20,966 bases of DNA, taken from IMG/VR virus record IMGVR_UViG_3300018423_000089, positions 1 through 20,966 of that record; one strand, given 5' to 3'. Shown here in pieces: positions 1,902-20,033 of this stretch; position 1 is the stretch's first letter, and each line of letters starts with the position of its first letter. Origin of the DNA: a virus. Below the pieces are notes generated by a model. It was not told the DNA's origin. It saw nothing but the letters and a program-made list of their open reading frames with translations, and did not search any database. The position numbers were made by a program, and so were the translations under genes.

Positions 1902-2600
1902 ATGCAAAACATTCACGACCTTGATACAGCTGGGCTGACTATTCAAGAAATCTCAACATTACATAATCAAATTATACTTGGAAAGGACTACGATTGGTGG
2001 TCTGAAGTACAGGCAGGTGGTACTGTCGTCGACATTGGAGCAAACATTGGATTGTTTTCAAAGAAAGCTTTAGATGCAGGCGCAGGCAAAGTCTTAATGA
2101 TTGAACCTAACAGACGATTACTTAAAGCCGCGATTAAAAATGTATCTGACCACATAATTGATACACCACCTGAGCAAGTCAAAGTTAAAGCAATCAACGC
2201 TGCGATTGGAAAGGATGTCGATAGACAAACAATTTACAAATCACAAACGATGGTTGAAGGCGAAGAACCGAGAGTTATGACTCTTGCTGAAATCACTTAT
2301 TGGAATAATTTAGAGTTTATTGATTATTTAAAGATAGATGCTTGGGGAGCAGAATATAATATCTTATGTCCTGATATATTACCTTTCTGTATGGACCGAA
2401 CACGATTCATTGCGATTCGTTGTTATATGGATAAACGATACAATACGAAAAAGATCTTTGAGAAATGGAGAGAAGAAATTTTAACTCCACTTAAGGATAG
2501 GTTACTATTTAAAGATGAAGCTTTGAGAGAAAAGATTTGGTATGATGATTGGGAAGATCACCTTCCAAATACTTTTATGATATACGTTAGGAATTGGTAA
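1902..2600 (+). CDS. FkbM-family SAM-dependent methyltransferase, paralogue 1
   Basis: A 232-residue Rossmann methyltransferase. SAM-binding motif I is DIGANIG at 44-50, with the acidic ribose-binding residue E68 in VLMIEPN. The FkbM signature K-I-D-x-E-G-x-E appears as KIDAWGAE at 144-151, so the usual first Glu is replaced by Trp148. FkbM proteins O-methylate sugars or polyketides. In phages they are usually assumed to act on glycans or on virion or host surface polymers, but the substrate cannot be read here. The gene is a clear paralogue of the gene facing it at 2587-3291 (shared KDY.WW..V..G.TVVDIGA, EP.R..LK..I.N.SD). The two overlap at their 3' ends by 14 nt. A late box lies upstream, while the Shine-Dalgarno sequence is poor. 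Confidence 0.85.
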   Translation: MQNIHDLDTAGLTIQEISTLHNQIILGKDYDWWSEVQAGGTVVDIGANIGLFSKKALDAGAGKVLMIEPNRRLLKAAIKNVSDHIIDTPPEQVKVKAINAAIGKDVDRQTIYKSQTMVEGEEPRVMTLAEITYWNNLEFIDYLKIDAWGAEYNILCPDILPFCMDRTRFIAIRCYMDKRYNTKKIFEKWREEILTPLKDRLLFKDEALREKIWYDDWEDHLPNTFMIYVRNW

Positions 2601-3291
2601 TAAACAACATAAAGGAACTCCACTTTTTAAAGTCTCCTTTATTTAAAAACTCATCGTCGTAAGCTTTTTCTCTATCTTCGTGTTCGAGGAACCTTACTTG
2701 ATTAACATCAAATTCTCTCAATAGACCATCGCGAAATTTTTGCCATTGTTTAACACAACCGCTGTATGCGTTTAAATGAAACTCGCATGCAATATGTTTT
2801 ACGTTGTTTTTCAAATACGGAAGATTCATTTCAGTAAAGATACCATACTCTCCACCTTCGCAATCAATTTTTAAATAATCTATCTTTGGGATATCGTAAT
2901 CAACTACAAGATCCAAGAAAGACATCTTTTTATAATCTTTATGGTCTGAATAGACATTCGCAAAATGATTTGCTGTTGAACCAATCCCAGCCTCAATAGG
3001 TAAGACAGGAACCTTTCCGTGGTCAATAAAATAATCCGATATGTTTCTTATAAGCGTTTTGAGATGAGGGCGAGAAGGCTCAACGGCAATGATACGATTA
3101 GCACCACGATCCAAAGCGTGACATACAAAAAAGCCAACACAAGCACCAATATCGACAACAGTATCACCAGGCTCAACGTCACGCCACCATTGATAATCTT
3201 TTCTATAAAAGAATTCATGATATAAAGTTTGAACATCCGTTAACGGAAGTCCCTCAGTTAATAAGTTTAAGTTTAAATGTTTCTTTTCCAT
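2587..3291 (-). CDS. FkbM-family SAM-dependent methyltransferase, paralogue 2
   Basis: A 234-residue paralogue of the 1902-2600 protein. Motif I is DIGACVG at 47-53, the ribose-binding acid E71 lies in AVEPSR, and the FkbM signature KIDCEGGE at 141-148 is intact, unlike in paralogue 1. This copy therefore looks catalytically competent by motif. It is the last cistron of the leftward early topoisomerase operon: its ATG is 3 nt after the stop of the small membrane protein gene. The two paralogues probably belong to different expression classes (early for this one, late for the other). The likely role is methylation of a glycan or other hydroxyl acceptor; the substrate is unknown. Confidence 0.87.
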   Translation of the reverse strand: MEKKHLNLNLLTEGLPLTDVQTLYHEFFYRKDYQWWRDVEPGDTVVDIGACVGFFVCHALDRGANRIIAVEPSRPHLKTLIRNISDYFIDHGKVPVLPIEAGIGSTANHFANVYSDHKDYKKMSFLDLVVDYDIPKIDYLKIDCEGGEYGIFTEMNLPYLKNNVKHIACEFHLNAYSGCVKQWQKFRDGLLREFDVNQVRFLEHEDREKAYDDEFLNKGDFKKWSSFMLFITNS

Positions 3292-3645: not shown

Positions 3646-4995
3646 TTATATATTCTCCAAGTCTGTATTAAATTGTTCAGTAGGTGTTGTCTTAGTCCAA
3701 AAGCTCAAAGTTTTATTTGTTTCTTCAATCTGTTTCTTTAACTTTACAATTTCGTCTTTTGTAAGGTTAATGATACTTAATGCGAGCAATCTGTTTGTGT
3801 CACCTCCTAGTGCAGATGTCTCTTGCATTATTTGTTTAACGACCTGTGCCTTTGTATTGTCTTTCATTACAATACGACTATCAATAAACGCTTGAATAAA
3901 CTCCATCTTAACTTTAAGCCATCGAACCTCTTCAGTATACTTTGCTACTTCAGCGTCAATTCTCTGCTGTAGTATCCCAAGGCGGTAGTCACAAAAGTCC
4001 TTTAGAAGTGTTTTTGCATCCGCATATTCTCGGAGTTTGCCGTCAAAATCAATGACTGTGATGTTTTGCGAATATGGCTTGGATAACTTAAACTTAGAAA
4101 TAAGCTTAGAATCATTCCATTTCGCAGAAGCCAATTTGAGTTTAACCTCAAACCTAAATCCATTCTTATCGCAAAGATCGTCGTAAGATACAATATCTCC
4201 ATCTTCTTCCAACTTATCAAGTACCTTAACATAACCTTCTCGGTCAAAGCCGTATGGTACTTCTGTGATGGAGACTAAGGTTTTACCCTGTCGTTTAAAA
4301 GTACCATACGAAACATACTTGGTGGGATCTTCAGTACTCTGCTCAACTTCTCCTGTGTAATCCGGAAACTTAACTCGGATTGGAGTTCGTATTGCATTGT
4401 TATTAATATACTGAAGACAAGCCTTAGCAAGATCTTGAGGATCGTGCGGAAGAATGTTTGTAGCAAACCCTGTCGCAATACCTTTTGTTCCATTTACAAG
4501 TACCATAGGAATGATAGGTAAATAGAATTGAGGTGGTTCGTGCTCAGGATCTTCATGCACTGGACTCAAATCAATATCTTTAACATATTTGTTAAAATTG
4601 TCAGAGAGTCGAGAATAGACATAACGAGGAGCACCTGCTTCTTGAACAAGTCGAGTACCAAATGAGCCTCGACCTTCAATTAGGCAAATGTTATTATTCC
4701 AAGTTGCTGCCATTAATTGACCTGCGCCTGCCGCAGATGCTTCACCATGATTATAACCATAATCTGATATAATACCTGAGACAGCAGAGACCTTTTTAAA
4801 ATCTTTCTTACTATTAAGGATTGACGAATAGAGATAGAACCTTTGAACAGGTTTAAGTCCATCAATCATATTTGGAATAGCACGAGATTCAACGGTATAC
4901 ATTGCGAATGATTTCCATTCGTTAGCTGCTACCTTTGAAATAGGATACTCTGTTCCTAAATTGTTTTCACTAATGTAAGCTGTTAAATCACTCAT
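3646..4995 (-). CDS. 52: DNA topoisomerase II medium subunit (gp52-like, breakage-reunion)
   Basis: A 449-residue protein, close to T4 gp52 (442 aa). It is the GyrA/ParC-like subunit that cuts and rejoins the DNA gate. The N-terminal segment has ESRAIPNMIDGLKPVQRF (DGLKPV is the family hallmark), and a winged-helix GEASAAGAGQLM region follows. The catalytic tyrosine is in GAPRYVYSRL, with Tyr125 directly after the conserved Arg124. FGTRLVQEAG precedes it, and GTKGIATGFATNILPHD is the conserved tower-entry motif. The C-terminal half is coiled-coil and Lys/Glu-rich. There is no GyrA-type C-terminal beta-pinwheel, as expected for the phage enzyme. Its ATG overlaps the stop of the YkgJ-like gene. 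It pairs with the gp39-like subunit encoded two genes upstream. Confidence 0.95.
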   Translation of the reverse strand: MSDLTAYISENNLGTEYPISKVAANEWKSFAMYTVESRAIPNMIDGLKPVQRFYLYSSILNSKKDFKKVSAVSGIISDYGYNHGEASAAGAGQLMAATWNNNICLIEGRGSFGTRLVQEAGAPRYVYSRLSDNFNKYVKDIDLSPVHEDPEHEPPQFYLPIIPMVLVNGTKGIATGFATNILPHDPQDLAKACLQYINNNAIRTPIRVKFPDYTGEVEQSTEDPTKYVSYGTFKRQGKTLVSITEVPYGFDREGYVKVLDKLEEDGDIVSYDDLCDKNGFRFEVKLKLASAKWNDSKLISKFKLSKPYSQNITVIDFDGKLREYADAKTLLKDFCDYRLGILQQRIDAEVAKYTEEVRWLKVKMEFIQAFIDSRIVMKDNTKAQVVKQIMQETSALGGDTNRLLALSIINLTKDEIVKLKKQIEETNKTLSFWTKTTPTEQFNTDLENI

Positions 4996-5300
4996 AAATA
5001 ATTACCTATAATCTTGTTATTATCCACTCTTTTAAATTCTTGTTTTGTTACGACTCCAGATTTTACATCATCAATTAATCGTAACGCATTTTCCTTTGTC
5101 ATTTTACCCACTGTATAGTTGTGTAACATTATACATACATAATCTTGACAAGGCTTTGGTCTGTTTTCGTATATTGCACATCTGTTAGTTGATGTTAGGT
5201 TAACACAAGGTAATAACAAATCATCTTCTCCTGGTATGTCAACTTTATCAAATAGTGTACCATTACAACAGAGACCACAATCAAAGCAAAGATTATCCAA
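4992..5300 (-). CDS. YkgJ-like cysteine-cluster (Zn/Fe-binding) protein
   Basis: A 102-residue protein with the YkgJ/UPF0153 cysteine signature: C5-x2-C8-x2-C11-C12 at the N-terminus, then C32, C41, the YENRPKPC motif ending at C51, and C56. The family is annotated as zinc- or iron-chelating and its biochemical role is poorly defined. The C-terminal 40 residues are a plain basic/acidic tail. The gene is embedded between the two topoisomerase II subunit genes, overlapping gp39 by 8 nt and gp52 by ATGA, so it is made together with them. Whether it modifies or binds the topoisomerase is not shown. Family assignment is confident by motif; function is not. Confidence 0.8.
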   Translation of the reverse strand: MDNLCFDCGLCCNGTLFDKVDIPGEDDLLLPCVNLTSTNRCAIYENRPKPCQDYVCIMLHNYTVGKMTKENALRLIDDVKSGVVTKQEFKRVDNNKIIGNYL

Positions 5301-7122
5301 ACATATACTCCTTTCTTAAATTACTGTCCTTACCAAACATCATTTGAAATACTGATGCATCATCAACCGTGACTACATCATACTTCGGACAATTAATAAT
5401 AGTACTATACTCATCTTCAGTTAATGAACCTAGACCCTTAATGTATCTGTGCTTATATGTAGATTGCTTATTCTTAAACGAACTTGCTTCTTCATAAGTA
5501 TAGAACCATTCCACTTCATCACCTTTTGAACTAATCATAATAGGTGTTCTTGTAATCATTACTCTCTGTTCAGTTAACAGGCGAGGCCAAAATTTGTAAA
5601 AGAACGCAATCAGCAATGGACTGATATGTCCAATACCATCATGGTCAGCATCAGTTAATGTTGCGATATGTTGATAAGACATATTGTCAACAGAATTAGG
5701 ATCGTTAATATCTAATCCTAATACAGCAACCAATTCAGATAGTTCTTTGTTCTTTAATACCTCAGCAGGTTTCATATCCCAGGTATTCATAATAACACCA
5801 CGGAGTGGAAATGCTCCAACCTTATCAGGGTCACGAACCTTTAATAAGAATCCCATCGCAGAATCACCTTCCACAATCTTTAATGTTGCATCATCTTTAT
5901 TTGCCGATATATGTTTAGCAACCTTAACCTTACGGAGTTTCTTTTGAGCCAATGTAGCAGCTCTTTTATCCGCAGCAAGTTTCTTTGCTAACTGCGCTTC
6001 AATAATTGGGTCAATAATATCAGGTGTATTTAAAATCTTTTGAGCAAGCCAAGCACCATCACGAACACCGCAAGATTCCATGTGGGATTTGATTTCTCCC
6101 CAAGGATTCGTTAACCTTTCTTTTGTTTGAGAATCAAATTTAGGATTCGTAAAGTTCCTAGCAAACATCACAAAGGTTAAACCACTCTTAATTGTAGTTT
6201 TTAATACTTCGACTTTATGACGTCTTTTAATTTTAACAACGAGTTCATCTATAATGGCGTTCATAAAGACATCTACATAAGTACCACCTTGTCTTGTGTT
6301 AACACCATTTATAAAACTATTCGTTCTAAATCCATCCTCTGAAGGTGCAATAAAGTATGACAGATTATCAGTCTTCTCAAGAATTGTAGTATCACTGAAT
6401 AAAGCAGCATACTGTTTAATGTCTTTTACTTTAACTCTTTTCTTATCGAAGCTAAATTGGATTTCTGGGAAAGCCATTTGTAAACTGATAAGACGATCTT
6501 CAATTAATGTAATCGTATCAAGTTCTTCTAAACTATCAACCTCAAATAAACTAAAGTCAGGAGTAAAGGTTACTTCGGTACCATGACCTGCTCTATCGCC
6601 TGTTTTAATTTTTAATGTATCAGCACCATCTTTACAATCAACTTGTATGTATTTTTTATTAGACCAAGTTTTACCTGAGAAAGATTCCGATAGGAAGTTC
6701 GTAGCAGCAGAGCCGACACCGTTAGTTCCAATCGTAACTCGTTCATCATCAAATGAGGTACCTGCATTAACTTTAGTCCAAGCAGCAACAGGTCGTAAAA
6801 GTTCTTCTTTACTTGTTTCGTCAAATATTTTATCTTGAGGAATACCGCGACCGTTATCTGTCACTGTAATAGAATTACCGCGAATGCTTACATTGATTTT
6901 ATTTGCGTATTTAAAATTAGTACGAATTGCTTCGTCAATTGCATTATCAAGAATTTCATCAACCATCTTTGATAGTGCAGGTACATACTTTGCTTTCTTC
7001 CATTCTCCAAGAACAAATCTTTCGATGTCTTCCTGAGAACTTGAACCCATGTACATACCGATACGTTCACGAACATGCTGTCGTGCCGTAAGTATTCTAA
7101 ATTGTTCAGTGTTCGTTGCCAC
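5293..7122 (-). CDS. 39: DNA topoisomerase II large subunit (gp39-like, uninterrupted)
   Basis: The ATPase subunit of phage type II topoisomerase, 609 aa from GTG 7122. GHKL motifs are DEILDNAIDE (55-64), DNGRGIP (89-95) and GTNGVG (132-137). The TOPRIM half contains VEGDSAMGF and DADHDG, and the C-terminus ends NLRKEYMFG like T4-type enzymes. In T4 this protein is split into gp39 and gp60; here it is one frame. The frame is open up to 7176, but -10 TATAAT of a consensus promoter covers 7153-7148 and transcription should start near 7141. The TTG at 7176 and ATG at 7149 would therefore not be on that mRNA. GTG 7122 has GGAG 8 nt upstream and begins VATNTEQFRILTARQHV, a normal N-terminus for the family. 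It heads the leftward early operon. Confidence 0.94.
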   Translation of the reverse strand: MATNTEQFRILTARQHVRERIGMYMGSSSQEDIERFVLGEWKKAKYVPALSKMVDEILDNAIDEAIRTNFKYANKINVSIRGNSITVTDNGRGIPQDKIFDETSKEELLRPVAAWTKVNAGTSFDDERVTIGTNGVGSAATNFLSESFSGKTWSNKKYIQVDCKDGADTLKIKTGDRAGHGTEVTFTPDFSLFEVDSLEELDTITLIEDRLISLQMAFPEIQFSFDKKRVKVKDIKQYAALFSDTTILEKTDNLSYFIAPSEDGFRTNSFINGVNTRQGGTYVDVFMNAIIDELVVKIKRRHKVEVLKTTIKSGLTFVMFARNFTNPKFDSQTKERLTNPWGEIKSHMESCGVRDGAWLAQKILNTPDIIDPIIEAQLAKKLAADKRAATLAQKKLRKVKVAKHISANKDDATLKIVEGDSAMGFLLKVRDPDKVGAFPLRGVIMNTWDMKPAEVLKNKELSELVAVLGLDINDPNSVDNMSYQHIATLTDADHDGIGHISPLLIAFFYKFWPRLLTEQRVMITRTPIMISSKGDEVEWFYTYEEASSFKNKQSTYKHRYIKGLGSLTEDEYSTIINCPKYDVVTVDDASVFQMMFGKDSNLRKEYMFG

Positions 7123-7147
7123 TATATTGTCTCCATCATCAATTGCC

Positions 7148-7176
7148 ATTATACCACAGTTGAAGGTCAATGTCAA
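7148..7176 (-). promoter_or_regulatory. Early sigma70-like promoter, proximal, for the topoisomerase operon
   Basis: The minus strand has TTGACA at 7176-7171, a 17 bp spacer and TATAAT at 7153-7148, both perfect and preceded by AACTA. The expected start near 7141 leaves a ~19 nt leader before GTG 7122. This promoter decides the gp39 start choice. Confidence 0.9.
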
Positions 7177-9911: not shown

Positions 9912-10619
9912 ATGAAAGAAGTATTTGTATTTGACATAGACGGAACATTGACAGATTCACGGAAACCTATTGACTCTGAATTTGAATCCTATATGATTGA
10001 ATTTGCGAAAAACAATGACGTCTATTTCGTCACTGGATCCGACAGACAAAAGACCTTTGAACAAATAGGTCCAAATTTATACGAGTCTGTCAAGGGAGTC
10101 TGGCACTGCAATGGAAACGAGTATTGGGAGAAGAATAGGCGTGTTAGTAAAAATGACTATACTCCTGATTATGAATTTAAACATTACTTAACTCAATTTG
10201 TTCATAGAAGCAAATATCCAATTAAGGCAGGAGATCATTTAGAGATTAGAACAGGTATGATTAATTTCTCTGTTGTTGGTCGTAATGCAAATGAACAACA
10301 AAGACAACAATATTATGATTGGGATTCAAAGAATAAGGAAAGACATCAAATCGTAGAAGATATTAATCGTCTATATCCAGCAGTACACGCAAGTATCGGT
10401 GGACAGATAAGTATTGATATTATTCCTAGAGGTAATGATAAGTCACAAGTGGCTAAAATCCTAAATAAAGAATATGAGTTTATTCATTTCTTCGGAGATA
10501 GAATGGCTTATGGTGGAAATGATTATCCACTTGCATTAGTAATTGACTTAGGTAAGATGGGATGGAACTATCCTGTTGAATCTTGGCAAGACACCTGGGA
10601 GAGGTTAAAAGAATTATGA
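9912..10619 (+). CDS. Phosphomannomutase-like HAD-superfamily enzyme (eukaryotic PMM type)
   Basis: A 235-residue HAD-IIB protein. Motif I FDIDGTLTDS has the nucleophile D8 and acid/base D10. Motif II is TGSD (41-44). The cap contains EIRTGMINFS (111-120) and GRN (123-125). SIGGQISID (161-169), DK (176-177) and FFGDRMAYGGND (193-204) follow. These match eukaryotic alpha-PMM signatures (RNGMLNVSPIGR, GGQISFD, FFGDKTxPGGND) far better than bacterial ManB, and the length is close to human PMM (~250 aa). The family interconverts mannose-6-P and mannose-1-P, feeding GDP-sugar synthesis. All key motif residues appear present. It starts 11 nt after tRNA-Thr and its TGA overlaps the next ATG. The substrate is inferred from family; a related sugar-phosphate phosphatase activity is possible. 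Confidence 0.82.
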   Translation: MKEVFVFDIDGTLTDSRKPIDSEFESYMIEFAKNNDVYFVTGSDRQKTFEQIGPNLYESVKGVWHCNGNEYWEKNRRVSKNDYTPDYEFKHYLTQFVHRSKYPIKAGDHLEIRTGMINFSVVGRNANEQQRQQYYDWDSKNKERHQIVEDINRLYPAVHASIGGQISIDIIPRGNDKSQVAKILNKEYEFIHFFGDRMAYGGNDYPLALVIDLGKMGWNYPVESWQDTWERLKEL

Positions 10620-10783: not shown

Positions 10784-11067
10784 TGATTCGTTCTGAAAAA
10801 GGTGAAAGAAAAATTGATTGGTATGTAAAATGGGTAGCATCCGTTTTAGTACTATCAGCAATTATTTTTAGGTCAGCAGGAGCAGAGTTCCATTTGCTTG
10901 ATTTATATTTTAGCTTTTTTGGAATAGGCCTATGGTTATGGGTAAGTTTGCTTTGGGAAGACCGAGCACTTATTCTTTTGAATGGAGCTGCTTTTGCTAT
11001 ATTGGCTATTGGTATCGTAAGAGATCATGGTCAATGGTGGATGCAGTGGTGGTCTAATTTATTATGA
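10783..11067 (+). CDS. Small multi-pass membrane protein, 94 aa
   Basis: The ATG overlaps the previous stop (TAATG). There are about three hydrophobic helices: WYVKWVASVLVLSAIIF (13-29), LLDLYFSFFGIGLWLWVSLL (38-57) and ALILLNGAAFAILAIGIV (62-79). A basic N-terminus and a Trp-rich end (HGQWWMQWWSNLL) flank them. The stop is immediately followed by tRNA-Arg. Function unknown. An inner-membrane location is inferred from hydrophobicity. Confidence 0.7.
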   Translation: MIRSEKGERKIDWYVKWVASVLVLSAIIFRSAGAEFHLLDLYFSFFGIGLWLWVSLLWEDRALILLNGAAFAILAIGIVRDHGQWWMQWWSNLL

Positions 11068-11142
11068 GCCCTCGTAGTTTAACGGATAAAACAGTCGGCT
11101 ACGAACCGACAACTAGAGGTTCGATTCCTTTCGAGGGCGCCA
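11068..11142 (+). tRNA. tRNA-Arg (anticodon ACG)
   Basis: Acceptor GCCCTCG (11068-11074) pairs with CGAGGGC (11132-11138), discriminator G and encoded CCA. The anticodon stem GTCGG/CCGAC encloses CTACGAA, giving ACG, which reads CGT. Wider decoding (CGC, CGA) would need A34-to-inosine editing by host TadA. The gene begins 1 nt after the stop of the membrane protein. The T arm is AGAGG-TTCGATT-CCTTT, the weakest stem. Confidence 0.9.
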
Positions 11143-11152
11143 ACAGGAGTAT

Positions 11153-11446
11153 ATGATGGAAAGAACAGAAACACAAAATTTGATTAACGCTTTAAAGAAA
11201 GGCGTTGTGACGGTTGTATTTAAAAAGATTAATACTGAAGAGATTCGTATTATGCCATGTACATTGAACCCAGATGTACTTGAAGAACATTCTGTAAAAA
11301 CAATCATTAAAGATTTCAACGCAGATTCAGATCATGTTGCCGCATGGGCAATTGATAAAGAAGCGTGGAGATCCTTTAGGTTAAATACAGTTATATCATG
11401 GGAGGAAGGTTATCCTTCAGGAGCAACAAATGGCGAAGTGGCCTAA
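11153..11446 (+). CDS. SH3-barrel-like (DUF2693-type) small protein
   Basis: A 97-residue protein after AGGAG; ATG 11156 has better spacing than ATG 11153, so the product may be one residue shorter. The pattern LINALKKGVVTVVFKKINTEE-IRIMPCTLNP followed by VAAWAIDKEAWRSFRLNTVISWE resembles the small SH3-like beta-barrel proteins annotated in many marine phages. They are thought to bind nucleic acid or act as regulators, but function is not established. Overlaps the next gene by 17 nt. Confidence 0.65.
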   Translation: MMERTETQNLINALKKGVVTVVFKKINTEEIRIMPCTLNPDVLEEHSVKTIIKDFNADSDHVAAWAIDKEAWRSFRLNTVISWEEGYPSGATNGEVA

Positions 11447-14624: not shown

Positions 14625-14939
14625 TTAAAATCCTATTGATTCTCCGCAACCGCAAGAAGCGGTTTCATTTGGATTGATAATTCTAAATGATTCATTCAAT
14701 CCTTCCTTTACCCAGTCCAACTTTGCATCTTTAAAATACGGTTCGGACAATTTATCCATGACTATTTTAAACTTTCCGTAATCAGTTACAGTATCATCGT
14801 TACTAATTTCACGAGCATATTCAATAATATACTCAAAGCCAACACACCCACCAGCAGTGACACCCAACCTAATATAGCTAGGTTGCGATCCTGCCGTTCT
14901 TTCAATCGCTTTAGATATTGCTGCATCGGTTAGTTCCAT
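14625..14939 (-). CDS. HesB/IscA/ErpA-type Fe-S cluster carrier
   Basis: A 104-residue A-type carrier with the three conserved cysteines: C32 in the LGVTAGGCVGFEY motif, and C96 and C98 in the C-terminal CGCGES motif. The SFRIINPN segment before them is typical (SF.v.NPn...CGCG). The family scaffolds or delivers [2Fe-2S]/[4Fe-4S] clusters to target proteins, with cytoplasmic location. Homologues are a known auxiliary metabolic gene of marine T4-like phages. The gene overlaps the stop of the upstream cistron by ATG. Expression would be late, from the promoter at 16094. Confidence 0.9.
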   Translation of the reverse strand: MELTDAAISKAIERTAGSQPSYIRLGVTAGGCVGFEYIIEYAREISNDDTVTDYGKFKIVMDKLSEPYFKDAKLDWVKEGLNESFRIINPNETASCGCGESIGF

Positions 14940-15307
14940 TACTTTTTCTTTTCAAGATTATCTAATCTTTTGTTGATATCATCAATCAACGATTTAAGCT
15001 CAGCTGTTCCACCAGGAGCAACAGGAGGATGTGAATCTCCTTCAAGCATTTCTATTCTATCTTCAAGCTCATCAATTTTTCCAGTAATACGAGGATACTT
15101 TTTTCTCCAAGCATCAGGGTCATTTTGTAACCAAGTCCAACCCCAACGAATTACAAGATATTCTAAAATACCGTCAAATTTTGCTACAGCCCAAGTTGCC
15201 ATTCTCGTATCTTTAAACCAAAACAAGAATCCTGCGCCTGCGATTGAACCAAGGATTGCTGTATAAATCCATAAGGTATCTGATAATAACCTCTCTAAAA
15301 TGTCCAT
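14939..15307 (-). CDS. TM plus coiled-coil protein, 122 aa
   Basis: The N-terminal membrane helix LWIYTAILGSIAGAGFLFWF (about 12-31) is followed by a Trp-rich amphipathic part (WAVAKFDGILEYLVIRWGWTWLQ). Two heptad-type stretches (KIDELEDRIEMLEG, ELKSLIDDINKRLDNLEKKK) flank a Pro/Gly-rich linker. The design, a membrane anchor with a periplasmic or cytoplasmic coiled coil, is reminiscent of spanin-like or holin-associated proteins, and the lipase gene is immediately upstream. No specific family is recognised. Starts on the TAATG junction with the lipase gene. Confidence 0.68.
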   Translation of the reverse strand: MDILERLLSDTLWIYTAILGSIAGAGFLFWFKDTRMATWAVAKFDGILEYLVIRWGWTWLQNDPDAWRKKYPRITGKIDELEDRIEMLEGDSHPPVAPGGTAELKSLIDDINKRLDNLEKKK

Positions 15308-16053
15308 TAGTTGTCCTTAGTATATTTTGTGTAGTTATCCATTGAGTGGTCTGCAAGGCCGTCAAAAGGCTTTAGATTAATCCACGAAGTCACAATACCT
15401 CTTAGTTTATCTTTCAACTTTCTCCACCAAGCAAGGTTCTTGATAATACCGTTATAGTTAAAATACATAACTGTACCGTGATGACGGTAACCCATAACCC
15501 AAGGTGGTATAACTGTAACTAAATCATTGTTATTAACAAAGCGATAATGTTCAACACTTGACATGTTCTTTACAAACTCGGCATTACCAACTCTTGGTGA
15601 TCCAAATGTATATAGAACAGGTTTGTGTACTTTTAATCTTGAAGCAGCAATTGTTGCCATTGCTCCACCTAATGAATGTCCACAAATTGAAATCTTTTTA
15701 TCTGAATGTTTTCCAAATTCTTTCATAACGTCTTCCCAGATATCATCAATTTCATTTTGGAAACCATTATGTACCCAACCACCAACTTGAGCCTTATCAG
15801 GCCAAATATTTAAATCTGCTTTAAGGTCGTTGAGTTCTGTAGGTTCAGTACCACGGCAACATAGAACGAATTCTTCTTTATTCCAAACACAATGAGCTTG
15901 TGCGCCGTCTTTATCAATAAATTTATGACCGGTATAACCTAATGCTTTGAATAATGGTTTGGCTTCCTTACCATCTTCATATGCAATTTTTGCCATTTCT
16001 GCTTTTTTAATGGCTTCACTTTTTACATCATCAAATTGTACTTTATTTTTCAT
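15307..16053 (-). CDS. Class 3 lipase (alpha/beta hydrolase)
   Basis: A 248-residue Lipase_3-type protein from ATG 16053, which has GGGAG 7 nt upstream. An upstream TTG at 16092 would lie at the late promoter itself and is rejected. The nucleophile elbow is GHSLGG (125-130, Ser127). The following GSPRVGN is diagnostic of the family. Asp177 in FVNNNDLVTVIPP is the expected acid and His236 in DHSMDNY the expected base. No signal peptide is seen, so export would need help (for example a holin), or action is cytoplasmic. It hydrolyses acyl esters; membrane lipid degradation at lysis is a reasonable inference. First gene of the late leftward operon. Confidence 0.88.
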   Translation of the reverse strand: MKNKVQFDDVKSEAIKKAEMAKIAYEDGKEAKPLFKALGYTGHKFIDKDGAQAHCVWNKEEFVLCCRGTEPTELNDLKADLNIWPDKAQVGGWVHNGFQNEIDDIWEDVMKEFGKHSDKKISICGHSLGGAMATIAASRLKVHKPVLYTFGSPRVGNAEFVKNMSSVEHYRFVNNNDLVTVIPPWVMGYRHHGTVMYFNYNGIIKNLAWWRKLKDKLRGIVTSWINLKPFDGLADHSMDNYTKYTKDN

Positions 16054-16093
16054 AAGTTCTCCCATTGAGATATATACAATTGAGTTCAGCAAT

Positions 16094-16101
16094 TATTTAT
16101 A
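16094..16101 (-). promoter_or_regulatory. Late promoter of the lipase operon
   Basis: The minus strand reads TATAAATA at 16101-16094, an exact late box. The expected start near 16088 is upstream of the chosen ATG 16053. It shares four base pairs with the plus-strand late box, forming the 12 bp palindrome TATTTATAAATA. Confidence 0.75.
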
Positions 16102-16105
16102 AATA
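16098..16105 (+). promoter_or_regulatory. Late promoter of the heme oxygenase-bilin reductase unit
   Basis: An exact TATAAATA on the plus strand, 39 nt before the heme oxygenase ATG. The expected start is near 16111, with a GAGGAAA ribosome binding site before 16145. It overlaps the opposite-strand box, so one site can load polymerase in either direction. Confidence 0.75.
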
Positions 16106-16144: not shown

Positions 16145-16765
16145 ATGGCAAACAATTTAAAAGAACTAACAAGGCAACACCACGATAACGCAGAAAGAAC
16201 TGAATTTGCCGATATGTTACTTTCTGGGAATATCAGTCCTAAACTTTACCAAGAATATTTACACGCTCAATTACAAAATTATATGGTATTGGAATCAGCG
16301 GTTGAAGTACCGATGGAATTAGAACCTATCTTTAGGTCAACTTTAATTGAAGAAGATTTATCAGAATTACAATCCACTTACGATTTAGAAGAAGTTGAAG
16401 AAAACTTTGAATCCGTTATAGAATATAATAAACATATTCATAAACTTCTCGAAGATGGTGATAACGAAGCATTACTTGCTCATTTGTATGTAAGACACTT
16501 TGGAGATGCTCACGGTGGTCAAATCATTAAAAGAAATGTTCCTGGTGCAGGTCTTATGTATGAATTTGAAAACAGGGCAGAGTTGATTAAACAAGTAAGA
16601 GAATTATTACATGATGGAATGGCTGACGAAGCAATGATATGTTTTGAATATGCAGAAAGGTTATTCCATGAGCTCATGGAAAACTATCGAAACAACGCAG
16701 AAGATTACGAACCAGAAAATTATGCGATGGCAAGACAGATGGGCGGTTGGGAAGATAATGAATAA
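16145..16765 (+). CDS. ho1: Biliverdin-producing heme oxygenase
   Basis: A 206-residue, mostly helical protein of the HO-1 family, which opens heme to biliverdin IX-alpha, CO and Fe2+ using reduced ferredoxin. The proximal heme ligand is expected to be His13 in QHHDNAE (family H-x-x-A-E). The distal helix motif appears as YVRHFGDAHGGQIIKR (115-130), equivalent to Y.RYLGDLSGGQ.L; the Gly124-Gly125 pair and Asp121 are kept, while the usual Ser is His123. The length is slightly below cellular enzymes (~240 aa), as in cyanophage ho1. It is coupled to the bilin reductase gene (8 nt overlap), which consumes biliverdin. This gene order is the two-step bilin pathway. Confidence 0.88.
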   Translation: MANNLKELTRQHHDNAERTEFADMLLSGNISPKLYQEYLHAQLQNYMVLESAVEVPMELEPIFRSTLIEEDLSELQSTYDLEEVEENFESVIEYNKHIHKLLEDGDNEALLAHLYVRHFGDAHGGQIIKRNVPGAGLMYEFENRAELIKQVRELLHDGMADEAMICFEYAERLFHELMENYRNNAEDYEPENYAMARQMGGWEDNE

Positions 16766-17453
16766 AATTGAAAGTCCTCTCTTTGATAGATTGAGAAATT
16801 TATCAGAGGAAATCTGTAATGTGTTTGATTCCTATATGGAACGTTATGATAATCCTAAACACACAGCAGACTTAAACGGTTGGGAAGATCACTTTTGGTC
16901 AAACGACATTATTCGCAAATGTCATTTAAAAACAATTGAACCCGTAGGTAAAAACAAATTATGGTTAATGCATATTAATGTGTTTCCTGAGTTTGATGTT
17001 GACCTTCCTATCTTCGGTTTAGATATTGTTGCTAATCCTAAAAAGATATCAGGTTGCTTTTGCGATTACTCTCCACTTCACGACCGAGGTCATGTATTCC
17101 TAGATAAGTTTAAATACGAAACCGAAGAACTAACTTGGACAAGAGCAAGAGAGATGCCTGACTGGGCAAAAGAAATCTTTTCTGAAAATATTGTAGGCGC
17201 AGGTTCAATAAGAGAAGGATTAGAAACAGACCAACTTTGTCAGATGGCTTTGAACCTAGTTACTTTTTATTGTTCAGAGATGGGAAATCCTGTTCATCAG
17301 AAATTAGATTGTCTGAATACAAAAGAAGCACAGAACAAATATTGTCGTAATCAGAAAATGAATAAGATGCTTCATTCTTCAATACTCGCAATGGGTGTAC
17401 CTGAAGAACGCAAAAATCAATATGTAGAGAATGTTTTATTTGAAGAAGTATAG
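16758..17453 (+). CDS. pcyX: Ferredoxin-dependent bilin reductase (PcyX/PebS/PcyA family)
   Basis: A 231-residue FDBR from ATG 16758, which overlaps the last 8 nt of the heme oxygenase gene; the frame extends upstream to 16644 only inside that gene. The diagnostic core is FPEFDVDLPIFGLDIVANPKKISGCFCDYSPLHD (about 76-109), matching FDBR PEFDLPIFG.D.V.......DLSP. Asp103 of CDYSP aligns with the catalytic Asp105 of PcyA/PebS. FDBRs reduce biliverdin to phycobilins with ferredoxin electrons. Of the phage enzymes, PebS makes phycoerythrobilin in cyanophages. PcyX is a PcyA-like four-electron enzyme reported from metagenomic phages assigned to alphaproteobacterial hosts. The absence of cyanobacterial genes in the window favours PcyX, but family placement needs a tree. 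No chromophore-binding protein is seen nearby. Confidence 0.85.
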   Translation: MNKIESPLFDRLRNLSEEICNVFDSYMERYDNPKHTADLNGWEDHFWSNDIIRKCHLKTIEPVGKNKLWLMHINVFPEFDVDLPIFGLDIVANPKKISGCFCDYSPLHDRGHVFLDKFKYETEELTWTRAREMPDWAKEIFSENIVGAGSIREGLETDQLCQMALNLVTFYCSEMGNPVHQKLDCLNTKEAQNKYCRNQKMNKMLHSSILAMGVPEERKNQYVENVLFEEV

Positions 17454-18217: not shown

Positions 18218-18493
18218 ATGACAAAAAAGAATTCAAAGGAAAAAACTGATATGTCCGTTGTAGCTCTAACACCCGATAAAATCCATCACGAAATAAGCAA
18301 ACATATTTCAAAAGGAGTTCCATATATTGACGCCTTAGTCGACTTCTCCGAGAAGAATGGAATTGAAATAGAAACAATTGCTCAAATCGTAAAGAAGAGT
18401 TCTATCTTGAAAGAAAAGATTCGGACTGAGGCAGTTACTTTAAAGATGGTGAAGAAGGAAGATGAACAAGATATCACAGACTTTAGCGAGTGA
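18218..18493 (+). CDS. 33: Late transcription co-activator (gp33-like)
   Basis: A 91-residue protein, or 80 residues from ATG 18251, which has AAAGGA about 10 nt upstream and fits the promoter at 18178 better. T4 gp33 bridges the beta-flap of RNA polymerase and the gp45 clamp so that gp55-polymerase initiates at TATAAATA boxes. Similarity to T4 gp33 is modest but ordered: G.PYIDALVDFSEKNGIEIETIAQIV..SSILKEKIRTEA parallels T4 MSYLEATTAFLEENSIPETQFAKFI..GIIEKIQSEA. The C-terminal EDEQDITDFSE parallels the hydrophobic/acidic clamp-binding tail. Gene order 33-59-32 is as in T4. Overlaps gp59 by 32 nt. Confidence 0.85.
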   Translation: MTKKNSKEKTDMSVVALTPDKIHHEISKHISKGVPYIDALVDFSEKNGIEIETIAQIVKKSSILKEKIRTEAVTLKMVKKEDEQDITDFSE

Positions 18494-19067
18494 TGATAGT
18501 TTTAATGCTTATGTTAAATTCTTAGCATTGAAAAAACATTTTACGACGGACAATTACGATTACTTTAAATACAATGGAAAGGTACGTGCAAATTACGAAA
18601 CATTTATGTCTCGAAACGATGCCTATTCATTCGCAAAATTAGCGAAAAAAGATGATGTTCAAGGACTCATTTTAAGTAATCTTTTAATAAATAAAAACAT
18701 CTGGGTACGTGATTTGCTTGACAGCGAAGGCGAAGCCAGATATATGAATTGGAGGAAAAAGATAGAATCATTAGGTTATGTCTTCAAATCCGAGCTTGCT
18801 CATCTTAATGATGAATACAAGCGAAACTTTATATCAGTCGATGGACAACATCCTCTTGTGATGACATTGTTATTACAAAAGAAGATTAGTCTTGAGACGT
18901 TTACTATTTTAGCTTTCATGGCGAATATATTTTCGTACTGGAGTGAGAAAATAGTTGACAAACATGTTAGTTTTGATATAATAGACAAATCCAGAAAGTA
19001 TAAACCTTTCTTGGAGTTTGAACCAAATCGTTTTAAGACAATTGTTAAAGAACGGTTTGATATTTAA
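18462..19067 (+). CDS. 59: DNA helicase loader (gp59-like)
   Basis: A 201-residue all-helical basic protein, close to T4 gp59 (217 aa). gp59 loads gp41 helicase onto gp32-coated fork DNA. Recognisable stretches are ALKKHFTTDNYDYFKYNGKVR (T4 MIKQHMNGKYDVIKYNWCMR), FAKLAKKDDVQGLILSNLLINKNIWVRDL (T4 FQKLSEKY...LIFISNLVANQDAWIGDI) and LLLQKKISLETFTILAFMANIF (T4 LLQSNIISFETFILLDSFLNII). The ATG lies inside the end of gene 33 with a GAAGGAAG ribosome binding site. A promoter for gene 32 is embedded near its 3' end. Confidence 0.93.
   Translation: MNKISQTLASDDSFNAYVKFLALKKHFTTDNYDYFKYNGKVRANYETFMSRNDAYSFAKLAKKDDVQGLILSNLLINKNIWVRDLLDSEGEARYMNWRKKIESLGYVFKSELAHLNDEYKRNFISVDGQHPLVMTLLLQKKISLETFTILAFMANIFSYWSEKIVDKHVSFDIIDKSRKYKPFLEFEPNRFKTIVKERFDI
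18955..18982 (+). promoter_or_regulatory. Internal promoter for gene 32 inside gene 59
   Basis: TTGACA at 18955-18960, 16 bp spacer, TATAAT at 18977-18982, both perfect. The expected start near 18989 gives a ~118 nt leader to the gene 32 ATG. The leader contains an imperfect-free hairpin CAAATCGTT (19024-19032) / AACGGTTTG (19051-19059, one G-U pair). Separate high-level expression of SSB fits its stoichiometric role. Confidence 0.8.
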
Positions 19068-19106: not shown

Positions 19107-20033
19107 ATGGCACTAACAGACTTCTCTTCTCTGAAGAAGAATCGCACGAAGACCTTGGATAAGTTGAACTCTCAACTTGAAAAGATATCTTCAAAATCAT
19201 ACCAAGACCCTAACGCAGGAAAATTTTGGAAACCAACGAGAGACAAAGCCGGTAATGGATTCGCAGTAATCCGTTTCTTGCCTGCACCTCAAGGTGAAGA
19301 AATGCCTTTCGTAAGGTTGTGGGATCATGGATTCCAAGGACCTACAGGTTTATGGTATATCGAAAATTCACTAACCACATTGAACCAGGATGATCCTGTT
19401 TCTGAGTTTAATTCTAAACTGTGGAATAGTGGAGTTGAATCTGATAAAGACCAAGCACGTAAGCAAAAGCGCAGGCTCAAGTATACTGCTAATGTCTATA
19501 TCGTTAAAGATTCAGGCAATCCTGAAAACGAAGGTAAAGTATTCCTTTATCAATTCGGTAAGAAGATCTTTGATAAGTTGAATGATTTAATGAATCCAAC
19601 TTTTGAAGATGAGGATCCAGTAAATCCGTTTGACCTATGGGAAGGAGCAAACTTCCGTCTCAAAATCAGACAGTTTGAAGGTTATCCTAACTATGACAAG
19701 TCTGAGTTCGACCCTGCTTCACCATTGTCTGAAGACGATGCTGAGTTGGAAAGAATTTGGGGAGAACAACATTCTCTCGAAGAAATTGTTTCTGAAAAGA
19801 ACTTCAAGTCATATTCCGAGTTGAAAACTAAACTCTATCGTGTTCTTGATTTACAAAATGATGAACCGACTGCTTCTGCACCGGTAACTGAAACTGCTGA
19901 TGAATTGGATTTATCTGATATGTCCAACGATACAGCTGAACCAGTAATGGCAACGGCTGAACCTGATGTAGGCTCAACCGCTAGTGATGATGATGATGAC
20001 CTTAGTATCTTTAAGGAATTGGCACGTAGTTAA
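19107..20033 (+). CDS. 32: Single-stranded DNA-binding protein (gp32-like), cysteine-free
   Basis: A 308-residue gp32 homologue (T4 301 aa). It coats ssDNA and organises replication, recombination and repair. The basic N-terminal domain (SSLKKNRTKTLDKLNSQ) mediates cooperativity. The core contains FWKPTRDKAGNGFAVIRFLP, GLWYIENSLTTL, NPENEGKVFLYQFGKKIFDKLN and the DLWEGANFRLKIRQFEGYPNYDKSEF signature. The C-terminal tail is acidic (DDDDDLSIF). T4 binds zinc through His64 and the cysteines around CPVC; here the matching segment reads DDPVSEF (95-101) and the whole protein has no cysteine, so the zinc site is absent. AAGGAG lies 7 nt before the ATG. It has its own promoter within gene 59 and a strong terminator after it. 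Confidence 0.96.
   Translation: MALTDFSSLKKNRTKTLDKLNSQLEKISSKSYQDPNAGKFWKPTRDKAGNGFAVIRFLPAPQGEEMPFVRLWDHGFQGPTGLWYIENSLTTLNQDDPVSEFNSKLWNSGVESDKDQARKQKRRLKYTANVYIVKDSGNPENEGKVFLYQFGKKIFDKLNDLMNPTFEDEDPVNPFDLWEGANFRLKIRQFEGYPNYDKSEFDPASPLSEDDAELERIWGEQHSLEEIVSEKNFKSYSELKTKLYRVLDLQNDEPTASAPVTETADELDLSDMSNDTAEPVMATAEPDVGSTASDDDDDLSIFKELARS

Follow-up and report, generated by a model that had tools for sequence, protein, structure and literature searches.

We analysed the complete IMG/VR record IMGVR_UViG_3300018423_000089 (20,966 nt, hereafter the window), which carries a heme oxygenase gene (HO, 16145-16765, + strand, 206 aa) followed by a ferredoxin-dependent bilin reductase gene (FDBR, 16758-17453, + strand, 231 aa). 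The two genes overlap by 8 nt, with the ATG of FDBR overlapping the stop codon of HO (ATGAATAA), and such overlap or direct abutment is frequent in relatives (offsets 0, -10, -3 and -7). A TTG start at 16644, taken from a program-made list of open reading frames, is unnecessary for FDBR and was discarded in favour of the ATG at 16758. A first scan found 75 relatives, and near-identical copies of the cassette are present in several further IMG/VR metagenome records. Furthermore, dN/dS values of 0.06-0.20 for FDBR and 0.07-0.13 for HO indicate that both genes are under purifying selection. Because of the copies in other records, the dN/dS values and the confident fold described below, the cassette is neither a chance occurrence nor an assembly artefact, and we confirm a genuine two-gene HO-FDBR operon. 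An earlier note on this DNA had proposed this pair of coupled genes with their motifs and coordinates, and the Pfam and PDB matches, the residue alignments and the 8 nt overlap bear it out.

The HO protein matches the Pfam family Heme_oxygenase (PF01126, E=1.3e-20) and, in the PDB, HO-1 and HO-2. Alignment with human HO-1 places its proximal His13 at His25 and its distal GDAHGG (Gly120-Asp121...Gly124-Gly125) at the GDLSGG motif, as in HO-1-type enzymes, and the comparison with human HO-1 shows its tyrosine, arginine and phenylalanine sites to be kept as well. When the ORFs upstream of FDBR were aligned for the clade to which the window reductase belongs (the lysine clade, described below), the histidine and GDxxGG were intact in 51 of 59 rows; the remaining eight are probably a different ORF sitting upstream of FDBR.

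The second protein matches the Pfam family Fe_bilin_red (PF05996, E=5.6e-18), and its top PDB match is PcyX (5OWG, E=1e-33), with PcyA next. An AlphaFold model, computed from an input without the row of the Pelagibacter phage Mosig (EXVC030M), has a mean pLDDT of 92, and Foldseek returned PcyA as its top match, then PcyX, PebB and PebA. The domain, the fold and an invariant Asp89 identify the protein as a member of the FDBR family, for which biliverdin reduction is predicted. The closest isolate relative is the Mosig enzyme at 31% identity, which is itself 85% identical to the crystallised PcyX_EBK42635. A maximum-likelihood tree likewise keeps the window protein within the FDBR family, where the earlier note had put it. 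In this tree, the lysine clade is sister to PcyX (100/99 for both together) and apart from PcyA, and the window sequence is separated from the PebA/PebB/PebS branch at 100/100 and falls outside the nine-row clade of characterised PcyX, to which it has ~30% identity. The lysine clade's own support is moderate (87/88), and the tree, which gave long-branch warnings, was built without alphaproteobacterial PcyA (Bradyrhizobium ORS278) and the PcyA of the freshwater phage CB_2.

The active site separates these groups sharply. Over 283 distinct sequences, the columns of PcyA His74, Glu76, His88, Val90 and Asp105 read H-K-H-N-D in 121/121 distinct lysine-clade members collected (His56, Lys58, His72, Asn74 and Asp89 in the window), H-D-H-C-D in 126/126 distinct PcyX-clade rows including the crystallised PcyX, H-E-H-V/I/N-D in 29 PcyA-type sequences, all of which have Glu at the Glu76 position, and R-A/T-N-V-D in the Peb sequences. 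Lys58 therefore occupies the position of both PcyA Glu76 and PcyX Asp55. The PcyA Tyr238 column is Tyr in the window clade (Tyr222) and in PcyA, and Phe in PcyX; in PcyA, Tyr238 is the hydrogen-bond partner of Glu76 (PMC9800206). Lys58, Asn74 and Tyr222 are invariant throughout the 121 distinct members, the most divergent of which share ~46-50% identity with the window, and we found no intermediates between the Lys and Asp clades among the best 80 matches of each of six viral scans, nor among the 283 sequences.

Compared with PcyA of cyanobacteria and of phage CB_2, the catalytic comparison that the earlier note had proposed, the window FDBR keeps the equivalents of His74, His88, Asp105, Arg149, Trp154, Asn219 and Tyr238 (with Arg131, Trp136 and Asn202 completing the set), but has Lys for Glu76 and Asn for Val90, and lies in a separate clade. 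PebS of cyanophages such as P-SSM2 is also a phage FDBR, and single-enzyme reduction is possible for both, but it belongs to the PebA/PebB branch and is without the His74 and His88 equivalents. The pre-PcyA enzymes of heterotrophic bacteria resemble the window enzyme in being without Glu76 and in reducing bilins outside photosynthesis, whereas their His88, kept in the window, is absent (pre-1) or replaced by Asn or Thr (pre-2, pre-3) (PMC10151467). PcyX is closest in setting, being a non-cyanophage enzyme of PcyA-lineage fold with HO immediately upstream and the His/Asp pair in place, but it has Asp, Cys and Phe where the window has Lys58, Asn74 and Tyr222. Collectively, these sequence comparisons indicate that the window FDBR is neither PebS nor PcyA, nor PcyX as characterised. 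The earlier note had framed the choice as one between PebS and PcyX; its exclusion of PebS holds, while PcyX gives way to a sister clade in which Lys invariably occupies the Asp55/Glu76 position. The lysine clade is apparently a large, undescribed sister group of PcyX. In the papers covered, we found no description of this clade or of its late promoter (see below), and some of its sequences may be present in published trees.

What these substitutions mean for the product can be predicted in part. Glu76 is required for 18-vinyl reduction, pre-PcyA enzymes without it yield PhiB or PEB (PMC10151467), and PEB is the product of PcyX (PMC13193486), which forms it via 15,16-DHBV. With Lys in place of the Glu76-type acid and the His72/Asp89 pair retained, the lysine-clade product should not be phycocyanobilin (PCB), and the leading candidates would be phycoerythrobilin (PEB), as in the sister PcyX, or phytochromobilin, with the published caution that an FDBR product is not readable from sequence or tree position (PMC13193486).

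A simpler reading, to which we give serious weight though somewhat less than an even chance, is that the enzyme makes PEB exactly like PcyX and that Lys58 is neutral drift at a position unused in catalysis. The sister relationship to PcyX at 100/99 and the retention of the essential His and Asp pair fit this reading, as does the FEBS J 2018 study of PcyX, in whose abstract the Asp replacing PcyA's Glu is reportedly non-catalytic. However, the invariance of Lys58, Asn74 and Tyr222 at the divergence given above argues that they are not the outcome of drift, and Asp55 is treated elsewhere as a PcyX-specific catalytic residue (PMC11480375). At the opposite end, the lysine clade may be a further kind of FDBR whose regiochemistry or product differs from those of known FDBRs, in which Lys58 would act on the D-ring side of biliverdin together with Asn74 and Tyr222. 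Its bilin would then be produced late and serve the virion or lysis, not host light harvesting; we consider this improbable.

The cassette lies upstream of a gp33-gp59-gp32 cluster composed of a gp33-like late transcription co-activator (18218-18493, +; PHROG 254; following the cassette at 121/153 loci), the gp59 helicase loader (18462-19067, +; PHROG 269; 140/153 loci) and the gp32 single-strand DNA-binding protein (19107-20033, +; PHROG 224; 111/153 loci). On the other side, divergent from HO, is a class 3 lipase gene (15307-16092, -; Lipase_3, E=2e-23), whose ORF is open to 16092 with a likely ATG at 16053 and which is found at 46 lysine-clade loci, and beyond it a recurrent neighbour (14625-14939, -; Pfam Fe-S_biosyn; 56 lysine-clade loci) coding for an A-type Fe-S carrier-like protein of the IscA family. 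The large (gp39 type, 5293-7176, -; PHROG 543) and medium (gp52 type, 3646-4995, -; PHROG 551) subunits of topoisomerase II, UvsY and a tail tube protein complete the T4-like core genes recognised by PHROG in the window. The PcyX clade occupies another genome position and another phage lineage, with gp59 in 0/82 of its loci, mostly with shorter flanks.

Using the gp39-type topoisomerase as a lineage marker, the closest isolates are Vibrio phages (49%); seven large lysine-clade contigs encode it at 74-87% identity, and it is absent from Mosig and from the two D contigs tested. Terminase (TerL) placement was taken from two long lysine-clade contigs of the same lineage, G001 (169.7 kb) and G463 (221.4 kb), as the window itself is without TerL. 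Both fall with or next to Sinorhizobium phage phiN3 and not inside the 100/100 cluster that comprises the cyanophages, Mosig and Melnitz, an OM43 phage among its members. The window phage is a T4-like marine phage, and on these trees the cassette would belong to T4-like phages that are distinct from the pelagiphage/cyanophage family and whose host is probably proteobacterial. Published hemO-pcyA/X-valaS cassettes (Wegner et al. 2024) likewise combine HO and FDBR in aquatic phages, but no alaS was noticed beside the window pair and the Mosig-like contigs are a different phage group. A host-derived gene was considered and rejected: only 3/385 alphaproteobacterial genomes sampled contain an FDBR, so that most potential hosts of that class are without one, and of the matches G015 contains binned phage-like contigs while those in G350 and G409 fail the FDBR profile.

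The earlier note had seen no sign of a cyanobacterial host and had named photosystem genes as the mark of an ordinary cyanophage case. In the related contigs searched, we found Photo_RC in 0/26, the phycobiliprotein/phycobilisome family (through which the bilin-binding globins associated with pre-PcyA were also looked for) in 0/21 and no GAF protein in 26-27 contigs or records. The lysine-clade contigs checked also yielded no Fer2 (2Fe-2S) ferredoxin at the curated cut-off, and a candidate phage ferredoxin in G010 was rejected as sub-threshold with two stops. Mosig, in contrast, encodes both a 2Fe-2S ferredoxin and a ferrochelatase, neither of which turned up in those lysine-clade contigs. Because the records are fragments, these absences are only suggestive. 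That HO and FDBR are known cyanophage genes, and that the window gp32 is 50-55% identical to cyanophage gp32, would be compatible with a cyanobacterial host whose phycobilisomes the pair supports, as do PebS and PcyA in cyanophages. We nevertheless judge this very improbable, given the searches for psbA/psbD-type, phycobilisome and GAF genes, the TerL of two lysine-clade contigs outside the cyanophage group, and a gp39-type topoisomerase search with no cyanophages among its ten commonest names, although hundreds of them match gp32. The earlier note's observation on photosynthesis genes holds for the related contigs searched, but the absence of a cyanobacterial host is not itself new, since HO-PcyX pairs in non-cyanophages, including the isolated SAR11 phage Mosig, have been published (PMC11480375; PMC13193486).

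A feature absent from the earlier note bears on the purpose of the cassette. Positions 16094-16105 contain TATAAATA, the T4 late-promoter consensus, readable on both strands within the palindrome TATTTATAAATA; HO begins 47 nt beyond it and, in the other direction, the lipase gene probably ~41 nt beyond it. Of 55 distinct regions preceding HO in the lysine clade, 47 contain TATAAATA, as against 4.5% of shuffled sequences and 3/53 such regions in the PcyX clade. Among 24 divergent lysine-clade representatives (<80% identity), 22 carry the motif before HO, in two cases (L204 and L208) >100 nt upstream, and 12 have the complete 12-nt palindrome. In the window alone, the count of TATAAATA (4 vs 3.1 expected) is not significant and the signal is one of conservation and position only; a sigma-70 scan was uninformative (8 matches vs 7.3 expected). 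In G001, an ORF begins 20-75 nt after 14 of the 20 TATAAATA sites, compared to 10 of 98 sites for six control 8-mers, and the capsid, sheath, protease and tail genes of G001 and G463 are preceded by the motif, which HO thus has in common with virion genes. This conservation before HO suggests that the operon probably shares the timing of the virion genes and is switched on late in infection, and the divergent lipase probably shares the promoter. Such late regulation of the lysine-clade operon appears to be new.

Taken together, the overall best explanation, which we hold to be reasonably likely, is a late heme-to-bilin operon of a T4-like phage that probably infects proteobacteria. Transcription of the gp55/gp33 type from TATAAATA would, late in infection, produce HO and FDBR, translationally coupled. 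HO would open the heme of the host, giving biliverdin IX-alpha, iron and CO, and FDBR would reduce biliverdin to a phytobilin with electrons from a host ferredoxin, a donor that we assume given the Fer2 result above. Disposal of host heme would free iron during virion production, with FDBR pulling the HO reaction forward and removing biliverdin. Published proposals for such genes include iron supply, photoreceptors and bilin-binding proteins (PMC11480375). We lean towards heme disposal and iron release because of the probable late timing, the failure to find acceptor genes and the IscA-like neighbour at 56 loci; this benefit is the most likely one yet the weakest step of the explanation, and we give it low weight. 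HO alone would free iron, which counts against this benefit, and besides the IscA-like gene no other iron gene is tied to the cassette. Iron-loaded tail fibres were considered and rejected, since neither G001 nor G463 shows an enrichment of HxH motifs in its long tail-fibre proteins.

Two other purposes have to be weighed. The operon may serve heme removal or redox control, with HO destroying respiratory heme or the bilin acting as an antioxidant and iron a by-product, which we think unlikely: a heme-free alternative oxidase is encoded on two lysine-clade contigs, G001 and G469, but a family search did not find it in 25 of 26 lysine-clade contigs (most of them short) or in the window, and as a general partner it was rejected, being confined to G001 and its relative G469. 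Light sensing, in which the new bilin would replace biliverdin in a host bacteriophytochrome and reset or jam its output, is in our view improbable. A freshwater phage HO/PcyA pair co-expressed with Cph1 does yield a functional phytochrome chromophore (PMC11480375), but no GAF protein was found in the 26 related contigs searched and late expression would come too late for much gain from host signalling. Under the late heme-to-bilin reading that we prefer, the conserved promoter argues for a role of the pigment pathway in virion production or lysis and not in early host photosynthesis or signalling. Heme-to-bilin genes in non-cyanophages have been called enigmatic (PMC11480375), and this promoter and the lysine clade, large and with a clear-cut new active site, offer two handles on them.

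Several minor observations were made along the way. The alternative oxidase genes lie at 10842-11423 (-) in G001, next to genes for NrdA and a glutaredoxin-NrdB fusion, and near 36549 in G469. A protein of ~235 aa without assigned function (phrog_7084) is encoded just upstream of FDBR at nine divergent loci (L214, L215, L216, L218, L219, L221, L222, L227 and L232), several of which have HO further upstream. Two contigs with a PcyX-clade FDBR, G472 (117 kb) and G473 (126 kb), showed no T4-like TerL that could be detected, and PcyX may therefore not be confined to T4-like phages; the lipase of G472 is 46% identical to that of the window. Phage-like FDBR contigs are binned in MAGs assigned to Bacteroidetes, Rhodobacteraceae, Halobacteroidaceae and Pirellulales (L230-L235), a possible source of false host claims. 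Elsewhere in the window, two convergent FkbM-type methyltransferase genes overlap at their ends (1902-2600, +, and 2587-3291, -), a small CxxCxxCC protein just under the Pfam cut-off (4992-5300, -) is a possible zinc or iron binder, and a phosphomannomutase-like HAD hydrolase gene (9912-10619, +) sits amid three tRNA genes.
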